This document shows positions 34,779-39,831 of a DNA stretch of 64,000 bases, in pieces. Both the position numbers and the translations under genes were made by a program. Location of the stretch: positions 1 to 64,000 of the forward strand of contig DASZWQ010000156.1 in the NCBI GenBank assembly GCA_035546535.1, in the 5' to 3' direction. The stretch comes from Pirellulales bacterium (GTDB taxonomy: Bacteria; Planctomycetota; Planctomycetia; Pirellulales; JACPPG01). The stretch's first letter is position 1. The number at the start of each line of letters is the position of its first letter. The notes under the pieces are model-generated. The model was not told where the DNA came from, made no database searches, and worked only from the letters and a program-made list of their open reading frames with translations.

Positions 34779-35783
34779 TTGCCGGCGCTCGATATCCGCT
34801 GCGACGGCTGTTGGTTAAGTTCTCGCCCCGACGAGAGCGGGAGGATTCCTCTGCGACGCCGCGGTTTTCAAATTGGCCTTCTGGGCGTGACCGGGCTGAT
34901 ACTCTTGCGCGTGGCCATCGGCTGGCACTTCCTTTACCAGGGGATCTGGAAAGTACAGACGCCCAGCTTTTCGGCCTCGGGCTTTTTGGGCCAGGCCAAG
35001 GGGCCGCTGGCCGAGCACTTTTACGCCCTGGTGCCCGACATTGACGGGCGGAAGCACCTCGATTTCGAAACGCAGATCGAGGAAATGAAGAAATACGCCG
35101 ACGCCTTCGTCGAACGCAATCAATTGAACGAGGCCGAGACGGCGGCGGTCCGCGAAATGCTGGCCGCGCACGAAGCCGAGTTGCTCGATTACCTCACGGA
35201 CGAAGTGAAAAAAGAGCACAAGCTGAAAGAGCAGTTCGAGGAGCATCTGCACAAGCTCGATCGCCTGGCCGCCGAAAAAGAAGCCAAGACTCACGACATT
35301 CCCTTCCAGCAGAAGCGCAATTGGGACGAGCAGCTCAAGCTGCGTGGACAGGCGGCTGCCTGGTCGAAAGAAGTCGACCGCATCTGGGAGCAATTCAAGG
35401 CCGACCTGGTCGCCGCCGTGGGCGATCGGCCGGTGCGTGCCGTGCCGACCGACACGGGCCAGCTTGAACTCGTCGACCGGCTAGTCACGTACAGCAACAT
35501 AGCCATCGGCGTGTGCCTGATCGCGGGGCTGTTCACTCGCTTCGCGGCCCTGGCCGGGGCCTTGTTCCTGGCGCAGATCGTGGCGGCTCAGCCCGACTGG
35601 CCCGGCATGTACCCGATTCCGCATCCGTCGGCGGGCCGGTCCCTGGTGGTCAATAAAGAATTCGTGGAAATGACGGCGCTAGTGGCCCTCGGCCTTTTGC
35701 CGACGGGGCGCTGGGCCGGACTCGACTTTTTCGTACACAACCTCATCGTGCGTCCGCTATTGGGGAAAAAGGGAGCCGTATGA
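34779..35783 (+). CDS. DoxX-family membrane protein with a long helical insertion
   Basis: The product (334 residues from TTG 34779) has one membrane helix at about 32-58 (IGLLGVTGLILLRVAIGWHFLYQGIWKV, the DoxX opening), then about 150 polar, strongly charged residues (about 80-220: KKYADAFVERNQLNEAETAAVREML; EVKKEHKLKEQFEEHLHKLDRLAAEKEAK; DRIWEQFKADLVAAVGDRP) predicted as coiled coil, then the remaining DoxX helices (SNIAIGVCLIAGLFTRFAALAGALFLAQIV; VEMTALVALGLLPTG). Ordinary DoxX proteins lack this insertion. The start is uncertain: a CTG after GGGAGG near 34857 or a GTG at 34887 are alternatives. It overlaps the next gene by four bases (ATGA), so the two are translationally coupled. Confidence 0.82.
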   Translation: MPALDIRCDGCWLSSRPDESGRIPLRRRGFQIGLLGVTGLILLRVAIGWHFLYQGIWKVQTPSFSASGFLGQAKGPLAEHFYALVPDIDGRKHLDFETQIEEMKKYADAFVERNQLNEAETAAVREMLAAHEAELLDYLTDEVKKEHKLKEQFEEHLHKLDRLAAEKEAKTHDIPFQQKRNWDEQLKLRGQAAAWSKEVDRIWEQFKADLVAAVGDRPVRAVPTDTGQLELVDRLVTYSNIAIGVCLIAGLFTRFAALAGALFLAQIVAAQPDWPGMYPIPHPSAGRSLVVNKEFVEMTALVALGLLPTGRWAGLDFFVHNLIVRPLLGKKGAV

Positions 35784-37522
35784 ATCTCAGTCCCGAAGAA
35801 CGCGCCATTGGCAAAGAGAACTTCAACGCCGCCATCGGCAGCGAGCTGACGCGTCGCGAATTCCTCGAACGCTCGATCGCGGCCGCGGCCGTCACCGGGG
35901 TCGGCCTGGGCGGATTCTATTTCGGCTACGAGAAGCTGAAGGGGGACCCGGTCCGCGTCGGCATGATCGGCACCGGCGACGAAGGGGGGGTGCTGATCGG
36001 GGCCCATACGCCCGACTATTTGAACATCGTCGCGATCTCGGATATTCGCCCTTACAACGTGCACCGCGCGTTCCACGGCGATCAGTCGAGCGAAAGCATC
36101 CGCGCCGTACGCCCCGGCTTGATGGCCAAATACGGCTGGAAGAGCGAAGACGAGGCCAAGAGCAAGGTCAAGGTTTACACCGATTACCAGGACCTGTTGA
36201 AAGACGACCAGATCGAGGCCGTGATCATCGCGCTCCCCCTTTTCTTGCACGACGTCGTGGCGATCGAGGCCATGAACCATGGCAAGCACGTGCTGACCGA
36301 AAAACTGATGGCCCACAGCGTCCACCAGTGCAAGAACATGGCCCGCGTCTCGCACCAGAAGCGTTTGCACCTGGCCACCGGACACCAGCGGCATTACAGC
36401 ATCTTGTACGACAACGCGGTCGACACGATCAAACGCGGGCTGATCGGCGACATCCATTTCATCCGCGCGCAGTGGCACCGCGGCAATTTGCCGGGCAAGG
36501 ACAGTTGGGCCCCGCCGCTACCGGACAAGAAGATGGAAGCCGATCTGGCCAAGGTCGTGGCCGAGATCGAGTCGCTGGGGGGCGACGCCTCGGCCGAGGT
36601 AAAGAAGTTTACCGACCTCTTGAAGGTGACGAAGGAGCTGGAATCGGCCCGCGGCTCGCGCATCGATGCTTTGGAAAAACGCCGTGAGCTGCTCACGCAG
36701 CAACTGCTCGACAAGGACGTCGACGCCGCCAAGTACGGTTACGAGGCCAAGACGCTTACGGACGGCGGCAGCAAGGCGTACGAATGTTCGCCGCTCGAGG
36801 AGCTGATCCACTGGCGCTTGTGGAATCGCACCGGCGGCGGACTGATGGCCGAGCTGGGCAGCCACCAGCTCGACGCGTCGGGCATCTTCTGCACCGCCAT
36901 GCGCAATGACGGGCACAAGGCTCTGCCGCTGTCGGTCACGGCCGTCGGCGGGCGGTACATCTTCCCGCTCGATCGCGATTGCGACGATCACGTCTATTGC
37001 ACGTACGAGTATCCGGGTCCGAAGTACGACGAAGATCCGAACAAGAAGATCGTCGTCACCTATTCGTCGATCAACGGCAACGGCTTCGGCGGTTATGGCG
37101 AAACCGTGATGGGCACCAAGGGGACGTTGATCCTCGACAAAGAGCAGGAAGTGATGCTCTTCAAGGACGCCGCCACGACGACCAGCGTGCTGGTGACCAA
37201 GGGGAAAGACGGCGCCCCGACGCTCGATACGACGGCGTCGGGTTCGCCCGCCGCGGCCGCTGCCAAGAAGGCGCTCGATGCCGGGCCGCCCAGCCGCGGC
37301 TACACCGAAGAGATGGAACACTTCGCCTGGTGCATCCGCAATTTCGACTTCGAGAACAACAAGCCGAAGTGCCATCCGAAGGTCGCCATGGCCGACGCGA
37401 TCATCGCCCTGACGACGAACATCGCCATGCGCGAAAACCGGCGCATCGAGTTCAAGCCGGAATGGTTCGACATCGACAGCGACGAAACGCCGGAAGGCGT
37501 GAAGCCGAGCGTGTCGGTGTAG
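35780..37522 (+). CDS. Gfo/Idh/MocA-family oxidoreductase with helical insertion
   Basis: The 580-residue protein has a twin-arginine-like N-terminus (TRREFLERSIAAAAVTGVGLGG, about 24-45), so it may be exported by Tat or membrane-anchored. The Rossmann motif is GMIGTGDEGG (about 61-70); the signature Lys is in VLTEKLM (EK about 174-175) and the catalytic-type His in GSHQLDASG (about 360-368). Between WHRGNLPGKDSW and LEELIHWRLWNRTGGG lies an extra block of about 85 residues (251-335) of charged helices (MEADLAKVVAEIESLGG; SRIDALEKRRELLTQQLLDKDVDA) absent from ordinary members. It is coupled by ATGA overlap to the DoxX gene, whose product carries a similar insertion. Substrate is probably a sugar or cyclitol. 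Confidence 0.88.
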   Translation: MNLSPEERAIGKENFNAAIGSELTRREFLERSIAAAAVTGVGLGGFYFGYEKLKGDPVRVGMIGTGDEGGVLIGAHTPDYLNIVAISDIRPYNVHRAFHGDQSSESIRAVRPGLMAKYGWKSEDEAKSKVKVYTDYQDLLKDDQIEAVIIALPLFLHDVVAIEAMNHGKHVLTEKLMAHSVHQCKNMARVSHQKRLHLATGHQRHYSILYDNAVDTIKRGLIGDIHFIRAQWHRGNLPGKDSWAPPLPDKKMEADLAKVVAEIESLGGDASAEVKKFTDLLKVTKELESARGSRIDALEKRRELLTQQLLDKDVDAAKYGYEAKTLTDGGSKAYECSPLEELIHWRLWNRTGGGLMAELGSHQLDASGIFCTAMRNDGHKALPLSVTAVGGRYIFPLDRDCDDHVYCTYEYPGPKYDEDPNKKIVVTYSSINGNGFGGYGETVMGTKGTLILDKEQEVMLFKDAATTTSVLVTKGKDGAPTLDTTASGSPAAAAAKKALDAGPPSRGYTEEMEHFAWCIRNFDFENNKPKCHPKVAMADAIIALTTNIAMRENRRIEFKPEWFDIDSDETPEGVKPSVSV

Positions 37523-37943
37523 GGGACGGGCGAACGTTGCCCTGAGCCCAGAAGATCGCTGCTTGAAATTAGGCCGCGATCTTCGTTACTTTTCGTGTGC
37601 TTTATCCAGGTCCATGATCAGGACAGAGCCGCGGTATCTAGAAGAGCTTGGCGTTGTCGCCGGTGCGTGTCTGCGAATAGCACGCGCATGAGACGGCGTT
37701 CGTGTTGGCACGATGCATCGGCCGCGCAAGTATCCGAAGAGCATAATCGGCAACCTGCTTTCCAAGGCAGTTTTGCGCGTGTTGGGCTCTTTTTTTGCGC
37801 CCAGTTTGCCACGAGGACGGTGCATATGACGTTCGTAAATAGGCCAAGTCAGCAAGACGCTGACGAATTGTCGGAAGAGTACGTCAATGCTTTCGTCGAC
37901 GCGATTACAACACGGCCTTATATCCAGTTCCGAGAATAGAAGC
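37523..37943. other. Intergenic region, no confident gene
   Basis: The 420 bp upstream of the SMI1/KNR4 gene have no convincing coding region. A 37-codon frame at 37826-37939 (MTFVNRPSQQDADELSEEYVNAFVDAI, then TTRPYIQFRE) ends four bases before the SMI1/KNR4 start and could be the remnant of a longer gene. Base composition here is lower in GC than the flanking Gfo/Idh gene. Confidence 0.4.
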
Positions 37944-38426
37944 ATGAACGACATTACGTATGCTTACAAACGCTTCTGCACGGAGCGCTTTCCGCTTCCG
38001 ACTGACGCACAAGTCAGCGAGTTGGAGTGGCGGATCCGGGTTGTGTTTCCGAAAGATTATCGGGAGTTCGTCCTCCAATTTAACGGCGGTTATTTTGACG
38101 ACCCCGTAATCGCTCCGGTACCCGATGGCTGTCCGCTGGAAACGCTCACTTACATGTCTGGAATCGGCGCGTCGCATCCAGGCGCTGAACTAGGGCGCGA
38201 CGATTTGCTGTCAGTCTTTGACGGTAACGTCCCGCCGATTATTGTTCCCATTGGCTACACAGGTCTCGGATCGCTTGTCATCTTGAGAACCGGCGATGAA
38301 GAGCATGGAGCGATCTATCTGAAGGAAGCGTTTGGCGGCTTCCACTATTTGGCCGAGGGGATCGAAGGATTCTTCGATCTTTTGCGTTCTCCCGACATGT
38401 CTGCTAACGCGGGGGGCGGAGACTGA
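37944..38426 (+). CDS. SMI1/KNR4 (SUKH) family protein
   Basis: The 160-residue protein from the ATG at 37944 has the SUKH layout: VSELEWRIRVVFPKDYREFVLQFNGGYF near the start (the helix and the conserved LP/FP-x-DY-x-x-F-x-x-x-NG motif), GRDDLLSVFDGNVPPIIVPIGYTGLGSLVIL in the middle, and GAIYLKEAFGGFHYLAEGIEGFFDLLRS at the end. Many bacterial SUKH proteins neutralise secreted nuclease-type toxins. No toxin gene is adjacent, so this is an orphan. An upstream ATG at 37887 is not used because the conserved domain starts after 37944. Confidence 0.85.
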   Translation: MNDITYAYKRFCTERFPLPTDAQVSELEWRIRVVFPKDYREFVLQFNGGYFDDPVIAPVPDGCPLETLTYMSGIGASHPGAELGRDDLLSVFDGNVPPIIVPIGYTGLGSLVILRTGDEEHGAIYLKEAFGGFHYLAEGIEGFFDLLRSPDMSANAGGGD

Positions 38427-38832: not shown

Positions 38833-38985
38833 AGTTGCGAACACCAACTATCGCTGCCGTCCCTGCGGCGAACTTGGTACAATGTCTGGCCAGCGCGGCT
38901 CGCCGTGCGCCGACCTTGGGCGCATTCAAAGTGGCACTGGGTGCCTCCGTCGATCTGTGCGCTCACTTGTCGAAAGGAACCATCC

Positions 38986-39831
38986 GTGGATCGTTGGCCG
39001 ATTGGGGTGTTTGCCAGCATTGACGCTGGGTTGGGTGTGAAGCTCGAAGTGGCGCGCGAGTTGGGCGTGCCCACCATTCAATTGCACGCGCCGGAGCGGG
39101 CCACGCGCACGCCGGAGCGGGTTCGCGAGTTTCTCGACCGGCTGGCCGCAGCGGGAATCCGCCTGACCGCGGTATTCGGCGGTTTCGAGGGCGAAAGCTA
39201 TGCCGACATTCCGACCACGGTCCGCACCGTGGGGCTCGTGCCGCGCGAAACCCGTGAGGCACGCACGCGCGAGATGCTGGAGATCTCGGATTTCGCCCGG
39301 CTCCTGGGCTGTGACGTGATCGCCCTGCACATAGGCTTTGTACCGCACGACGCCAAAGACCCGCTCTACAAGGAAGTGCTGGAAGTCACGCGCAAGGTAT
39401 GCGATCACGCCCGGGCAAACGGCCAGGCGCTGCACCTGGAAACCGGGCAAGAGCCGGCCGAAGCACTCTTGCGGTTCATCGCCGACGTCGAGCGGCCGAA
39501 CCTGTTCATCAATTTCGACCCGGCCAACATGATCCTGTACGGGTCGGGCGAGCCGATCGCGGCCCTGGAACAACTGGGCCGTTACGTCCGCAGCGTCCAT
39601 TGCAAGGACGGCACCTGGGCCGCGCGGCCGGGGCAGGAGTGGGGCGCCGAAGTGCCGCTGGGCGAGGGGGCGGTGGGCATGGAAAACTATCTCCGCACAC
39701 TCTATAAAATCGGTTACCAGGGGCCTTTGACTATCGAGCGCGAAATCCCGCAAGAGCCCGAGCGGCAAAAGGCCGAGATCGGCCGCGCGGTCCGCTTGCT
39801 GGAAGAGTTGAAGGCCAAGGTCCTTTCCTAG
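38986..39831 (+). CDS. Sugar phosphate isomerase/epimerase (xylose isomerase-like TIM barrel)
   Basis: The 281-residue protein starts at the GTG at 38986, eight bases behind AAAGGA. It is an AP-endonuclease-2-type TIM barrel: FASIDAGLGVKLEVARELGVPTIQLHAPE, then LLGCDVIALHIGFVP, LHLETGQEPAEALLRFI, LFINFDPANMILYGSGEPIAALEQLG, VRSVHCKDGTWA and GPLTIERE. The acidic and His residues of HLETG, NFDPAN, HCKD and IERE are the metal ligands expected for the family. Members interconvert keto-sugars or inositols. It is not adjacent to the Gfo/Idh/MocA gene, with which such epimerases often work. Confidence 0.88.
   Translation: MDRWPIGVFASIDAGLGVKLEVARELGVPTIQLHAPERATRTPERVREFLDRLAAAGIRLTAVFGGFEGESYADIPTTVRTVGLVPRETREARTREMLEISDFARLLGCDVIALHIGFVPHDAKDPLYKEVLEVTRKVCDHARANGQALHLETGQEPAEALLRFIADVERPNLFINFDPANMILYGSGEPIAALEQLGRYVRSVHCKDGTWAARPGQEWGAEVPLGEGAVGMENYLRTLYKIGYQGPLTIEREIPQEPERQKAEIGRAVRLLEELKAKVLS

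Follow-up and report, generated by a model that had tools for sequence, protein, structure and literature searches.

Glucose-fructose oxidoreductase (GFOR) cycles NADP without an external acceptor. For the glycoside 3-dehydrogenases of the BT_2158 family, which also belong to Gfo/Idh/MocA, we know of no DoxX or ApbE partner. To our knowledge the Gfo/Idh/MocA, DoxX and ApbE families are not known to work together, and the biochemistry of DoxX proteins is itself poorly known. Export of GFOR by the Tat pathway with NADP bound is established (Halbig 1999, as cited in PMC7317946). DoxD/DoxA is a thiosulfate:quinone oxidoreductase that passes electrons to quinone (PMC6335251). ApbE moves FMN onto the Thr or Ser of D-x-x-[ST]-G-A-[ST] (PMC12052999), and in ApbE-dependent extracytosolic flavinylated systems the neighbors of apbE code for a membrane protein and an extracytoplasmic redox enzyme (PMC8238504, PMC11334425).

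The locus described here, in a window of 64,000 nucleotides from a Pirellulales bacterium, has features of each of these systems. It encodes a DoxX-family membrane protein (DoxX) followed by a Gfo/Idh/MocA oxidoreductase (Gfo). Gfo has the Gfo/Idh/MocA fold and Tat-type export in common with GFOR of Zymomonas (PDB 1rye, 1evj, 1ofg, 1h6a), but the two are about 15% identical, and Gfo differs in having EKLM instead of EKP, an apparently uncleaved signal, a conserved n-region, large insertions, and DoxX and ApbE as partners. Its relationship to the glycoside 3-dehydrogenases (NF058561) is detectable at 49 bits, far under the 750-bit cut-off. DoxX is a four-helix membrane protein of the DoxX type, as in DoxD/DoxA and the DoxX family (PF07681, PF04173), but it has a segment of 159-469 aa between TM1 and TM2 in the class, scores under the DoxD/TQO cut-offs and is paired with Gfo, not DoxA. 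The apbE neighborhood resembles that of the flavinylated systems, although DoxX and Gfo, unlike those, have no FMN-bind domain or flavinylation motif. The main texts of the two surveys of such systems (PMC8238504, PMC11334425) make no mention of Gfo, DoxX or Planctomyc-, and no publication describing the doxX-gfo(-apbE) set was found in the literature searched, which largely excludes subscription journals. Each of the three families is known, and it is their combination and its class-wide conservation that appear to be undescribed. DoxX and Gfo may belong to a redox module that is found throughout the class, acts outside the cytoplasm and has a dedicated ApbE as its third member, a reading to which we give an even chance. 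The features in the window are as follows.

34779-35783, + strand: doxX (mechanical ORF), membrane protein of the DoxX family, long insertion between TM1 and TM2 (PF07681)
34839-34845, + strand: probable ribosome-binding site GGGAGGA of doxX, conserved within the genus
34851-34853, + strand: probable non-ATG start codon of doxX, CTG, conserved within the genus
35001-35498, + strand: DoxX segment GPLA..IAIG, 166 aa, with the predicted charged helical insertion (AlphaFold2, class-wide length)
35780-37522, + strand: gfo, Tat-type Gfo/Idh/MocA oxidoreductase, GFOR-like (PF01408; profile and fold relatives)
35852-35857, + strand: twin arginines of the Tat-like signal TRREFL of Gfo (RR in 92/95 class sequences)
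35969-35986, + strand: Rossmann dinucleotide-binding motif GTGDEG of Gfo (exact in 68/95, close variants in most others)
36302-36304, + strand: catalytic-type lysine in EKLM of Gfo (EKLM in 95/95 class sequences)
36479-36808, + strand: Gfo segment QWHR..HWRLW, 110 aa, with the order-specific helical insertion (length comparison, predicted helices)
38905-39831, + strand: xylose-isomerase-like TIM barrel (AP_endonuc_2), optional neighbor (PF01261, 119 bits)

The two ORFs overlap by 4 bases, ATGA at 35780-35783, just as the first-pass annotation had them. The TTG at 34779 that opens the mechanical doxX ORF is probably not the real start. All four genus members compared have GGGAGG and the CTG at the same place, none of them has an ATG, GTG or TTG at this site, and the sequence upstream is not conserved. 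The GGGAGGA is spaced five bases from the CTG at 34851, near which the true start probably lies. Since conservation within the genus begins at these two elements, DoxX is probably about 310 residues long, not 334.

The doxX-gfo pair is conserved throughout the order and the class. A DoxX homolog is present in all 57 Pirellulales genomes (43 genera, 20 families), and Gfo is encoded in the same 57, adjacent to doxX, which in one of them (G011) is split by a contig end. At class level the DoxX profile matches 216 of 218 Planctomycetia genomes and all 118 genera, and the 25 matches among 244 genomes sampled from the phylum all fall within the class. The Gfo profile finds 20/20 genomes of family f21 and 41/43 further class genomes; outside the class it finds two weak relatives in a phylum sample of 196. 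In all 95 loci measured the two genes share a strand and doxX comes first. The gap is at most 50 bases in 43 of them, the genes overlap or abut in 25, and the few large gaps belong to loci with a tandem second gfo. In several f21 genomes gfo lies apart from doxX. The adjacency is far more frequent than expected by chance, and the pair is better supported than was claimed at first reading. Some lineages carry additional copies: a tandem second gfo follows the first in the Pirellulales families f3 (L062, L073, L083, L086) and f18 (L080, L100, L101), and the f95 loci (L237, L238) have two gfo copies.

A third gene, apbE (FAD:protein FMN transferase), was first found beside the out-of-class relatives of Gfo. 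Outside the class the order is doxX-like-apbE-gfo at L244 and apbE-gfo at L245, both planctomycete loci with a Tat-type Gfo, and at L278/L279 a doxX-like-apbE pair is divergent from gfo. The DoxX-like calls are weak there, L244 scoring 19.1 bits (cut-off 23.6) and L279 having no DoxX match. A search with these ApbEs showed that, of 40 class loci outside Pirellulales, 33 have apbE adjoining doxX and sharing its strand. With wide flanks it lies beside doxX in 13/18 loci, including two (G278, G148) from which gfo has moved away; it is not adjacent in f95, in most of f97 or in Pirellulales. The linked ApbEs score 218-236 bits against PF02424. In a midpoint-rooted ML tree they all fall in one clade (100/98), to which each of 14 Pirellulales genomes contributes a single ApbE; the other ApbEs of these genomes fall outside it. 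The member from the window's genome is the following.

G000:C91:37756-38529: orthologous ApbE of the window genome (within the linked-ApbE clade, ML tree)

The window's genome and the other 13 Pirellulales genomes sampled all have the orthologous apbE away from doxX-gfo, and at least one ApbE is encoded in each of the 57 order genomes. The parsimonious reading of tree and gene order is that an ancestral apbE-doxX-gfo set was linked and that apbE moved away in Pirellulales. In its new place apbE has a gene for a secreted cytochrome c'/b562-like protein opposite it in 12 of the 14 Pirellulales loci (L280:3173-5462 and 13 among L282-L299), and a DedA/VTT-domain gene is often downstream (9/14).

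The flavinylation motif D-x(2,3)-[ST]-G-A-[ST], which allows one extra residue, is absent from all 95 DoxX and all 95 Gfo sequences, so the ApbE target would be either non-canonical or encoded elsewhere. The ApbE of the window's genome has a TGAT near its N-terminus, which is taken to be a coincidence, since none was seen in the rest of the linked ApbEs examined. It is possible that apbE, doxX and gfo are neighbors for the sake of regulation, for example under envelope oxidative stress, and act separately, with ApbE serving other flavoproteins. The missing motif would fit this, as would the fact that apbE and gfo can each leave the locus separately and that the relocated apbE has a cytochrome c'-like gene opposite it. 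Against common regulation stand the similar combinations in other classes and the fact that the class has kept doxX and gfo together almost without exception, and the explanation seems quite improbable to us. The coupled redox-type unit suggested by the first-pass annotation gains from the same class-wide conservation, and the association with apbE is independent evidence of a redox role.

The xylose-isomerase-like gene is present in 49/57 order genomes and adjoins gfo in about half of those. Its product is very similar to the solved structure 3tva (E 2.8e-110). It was considered as a third core part and ruled out, since outside Pirellulales it is not beside doxX-gfo though present. At L245 two AP_endonuc_2 TIM barrels adjoin apbE-gfo, echoing this gene. 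Between gfo and the isomerase-like gene the window also has a SUKH-type (SMI1/KNR4) immunity-like gene at 37887-38426 (PF09346, 45.9 bits). A group of Pirellulales (L147:2741-5118 and similar) has serine/threonine-kinase-like and 2-hydroxyacid-dehydrogenase-like ORFs that lie upstream of doxX and run on the other strand, and in clustering the overlapping frames of these ORFs look like a conserved + strand gene.

DoxX matches PF07681 with 30.6 bits, over a cut-off of 23.6, and the match falls into two stretches that flank the insertion. Its AlphaFold2 model has a mean pLDDT of 91 and predicts membrane-type helices at residues 2-37 (TM1), 204-226 (TM2), 230-247 and 270-283. The insertion is modeled as helices at 73-90, 95-122, 125-145 and 152-191, which makes a helical bundle between TM1 and TM2 credible; TM2 begins within the 3' end of the GPLA..IAIG segment, near 35457. 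Across the 95 sequences net charge is positive at both termini and in the TM2-3 loop and negative in the TM3-4 loop. The modeled helices and these positive-inside charges predict a four-helix membrane protein with both termini inside, and from the charge pattern the insertion should face outward, on the extracytoplasmic side. Searches for relatives of the bundle gave nothing specific. Foldseek returned no fold relative of the model at a threshold of E <= 0.001, its best match having an E of about 1; the Z of up to 9.1 that VIA-align gives for the bundle is one that unrelated helical bundles reach and is unspecific; and a PDB sequence search with the DoxX profile found only apolipoprotein-like helices at chance level. 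DoxX stays below the cut-offs of PF04173 (DoxD; 18.1 bits, cut-off 22.7) and NF041179 (TQO_large_DoxD; 13.9 bits, cut-off 300), so that a quinone site in DoxX is at most putative. No cysteine, heme motif or redox motif was identified among its invariant columns.

Gfo is a member of PF01408 (GFO_IDH_MocA; 55.4 bits, cut-off 24), and its C-terminal domain belongs to PF22725 (29.1 bits, cut-off 27). GFOR is both its nearest solved relative by profile (E 3.6e-21) and its best fold match (TM 0.76 over 1rye_C). Where Gfo has EKLM, the family usually has EKP. The catalytic-type His lies in ELGSHQ, found in all 95 sequences with its listed variants included, and the family usually has Asp where Gfo has Glu. 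The likeness to GFOR seen in sequence and model is one of fold and export; tightly bound NADP and aldose-ketose dismutation would be further likenesses that it does not imply.

The twin-arginine-like N-terminus noted at first reading is present as TRREFL, and typical contexts of the RR in the class are TRRDFL, SRRDFI and NRRGFM. The score against the Tat signal model TIGR01409 is 13.9 bits, below the cut-off of 16.7. An n-region MNLxPEExxxGKxNF precedes the RR, and the short hydrophobic stretch that follows it ends in YFGY; both are kept across orders. No obvious cleavage site follows this stretch in the class sequences, and the natural reading is that the signal is an uncleaved Tat membrane anchor. 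Such anchors are known from Rieske proteins (PMC7317946), and the Rieske Tat model PF10399 gives a weak score on an out-of-class Gfo relative. The first 20 residues, MNLxPEExxxGKxNFxxAxG (35780-35850), are unusually conserved across several orders, and this n-region may have a binding role in the cytoplasm. From the charge distribution of DoxX and the RR signal of Gfo, the DoxX insertion and Gfo are predicted to be on the same, extracytoplasmic side of the membrane.

The closeness to GFOR raises another possibility, in which DoxX is a mere scaffold or a Tat/assembly partner that carries no electrons and Gfo is a GFOR-like closed dismutase with tightly bound NAD(P). GFOR is nearest to Gfo by both profile and fold and needs no external acceptor, and the invariant columns of DoxX, with no redox, cysteine or heme motif, agree with a structural role. 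This possibility leaves unexplained why apbE sits beside doxX rather than gfo, even where gfo sits elsewhere, and we consider it rather unlikely.

The first-pass annotation had singled out the charged helical insertions of the two proteins as matching pieces. Both insertions are present, both appear helical, well modeled in DoxX (pLDDT 91) and predicted in Gfo at 250-265, 278-289 and 293-313 (pLDDT blocks of 49-91, partly low confidence), and both have a charged fraction (K, R, D, E) of 0.36; that they match is wrong. Lengths were taken between fixed motifs, GPLA..IAIG in DoxX and QWHR..HWRLW in Gfo, in 95 class genomes. All 95 have a long DoxX segment (159-469 aa), whereas the Gfo segment is 79-206 aa in the 54 Pirellulales and 39-78 aa in the 41 genomes of other orders. 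The DoxX insertion therefore goes back to the ancestor of the class, and that of Gfo was added later, in one order. Family f21 has a DoxX segment of 259-303 aa in 13 of 14 genomes, yet its Gfo segment is short (39-67 aa). The DoxX-like proteins outside the class (L244, L279) have short loops, an indication that the bundle originated on the class stem.

If the two coiled-coil blocks had co-evolved to bind each other, the pair could be a two-part sugar:quinone oxidoreductase. Both insertions are helical and equally charged, the predictions place them on one side of the membrane, and the genes overlap. The expected co-insertion across genomes is not found, since one insertion is class-wide and the other specific to Pirellulales, and a Gfo without the insertion still adjoins doxX in other orders. 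The segment lengths are weakly anticorrelated overall (Spearman -0.32) and more so outside Pirellulales (-0.43), with +0.26, not significant, inside, all values being uncorrected for phylogeny. Covariation between the proteins (152 pairs, effective number about 119) was strongest for pairs in the shared DNA of the overlapping frames, and the remaining pairs were within the permuted background and gave no usable contact signal. The docking proposal was to fall if the insertions occurred independently of each other, and the Gfo insertion indeed has no matching history in DoxX. We regard such co-evolved docking as very unlikely.

In the redox module that we favor, Gfo would fold around NAD(P) in the cytoplasm, be exported by Tat and stay anchored in the membrane through its signal. 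DoxX, with its N- and C-termini inside, would display the helical bundle on the outer face, where Gfo would rest on it, and would relay reducing equivalents between Gfo and the membrane pool, probably quinone. ApbE would attach FMN covalently to a member of, or a partner in, this DoxX-Gfo path. In Pirellulales apbE would have been relocated, and Gfo would later have gained a coiled-coil extension of its own. Of this picture, the conservation and order of the genes, the linkage and orthology of apbE and the histories of the insertions are observed, and the topology, helices and fold are predicted; the physical DoxX-Gfo complex, the quinone coupling, the flavin target and the substrate are parts that we infer. 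A more specific form, in which ApbE flavinylates DoxX (or an unlinked carrier) non-canonically and the FMN relays electrons between the NAD(P)-holding, Tat-anchored Gfo and the quinone pool, is in our judgment unlikely. If true, this FMN-relay module would be a core respiratory-type extracytoplasmic route from nicotinamide to quinone without a classical dehydrogenase.

The interest of the locus rests on the conserved trio and not on matched insertions. A transposon essentiality map has been published for Planctopirus limnophila (PMC10632474), the main text of which names neither doxX nor gfo; this organism makes testing of the module practical. The doxX-gfo module is close to universal in one bacterial class. 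If it is a true electron-transfer unit, it would bring Gfo/Idh/MocA, DoxX and ApbE together in one system, and a nicotinamide enzyme would be added to what is known of flavin-based electron transfer outside the cytosol. DoxX proteins would then have a role that can be tested.
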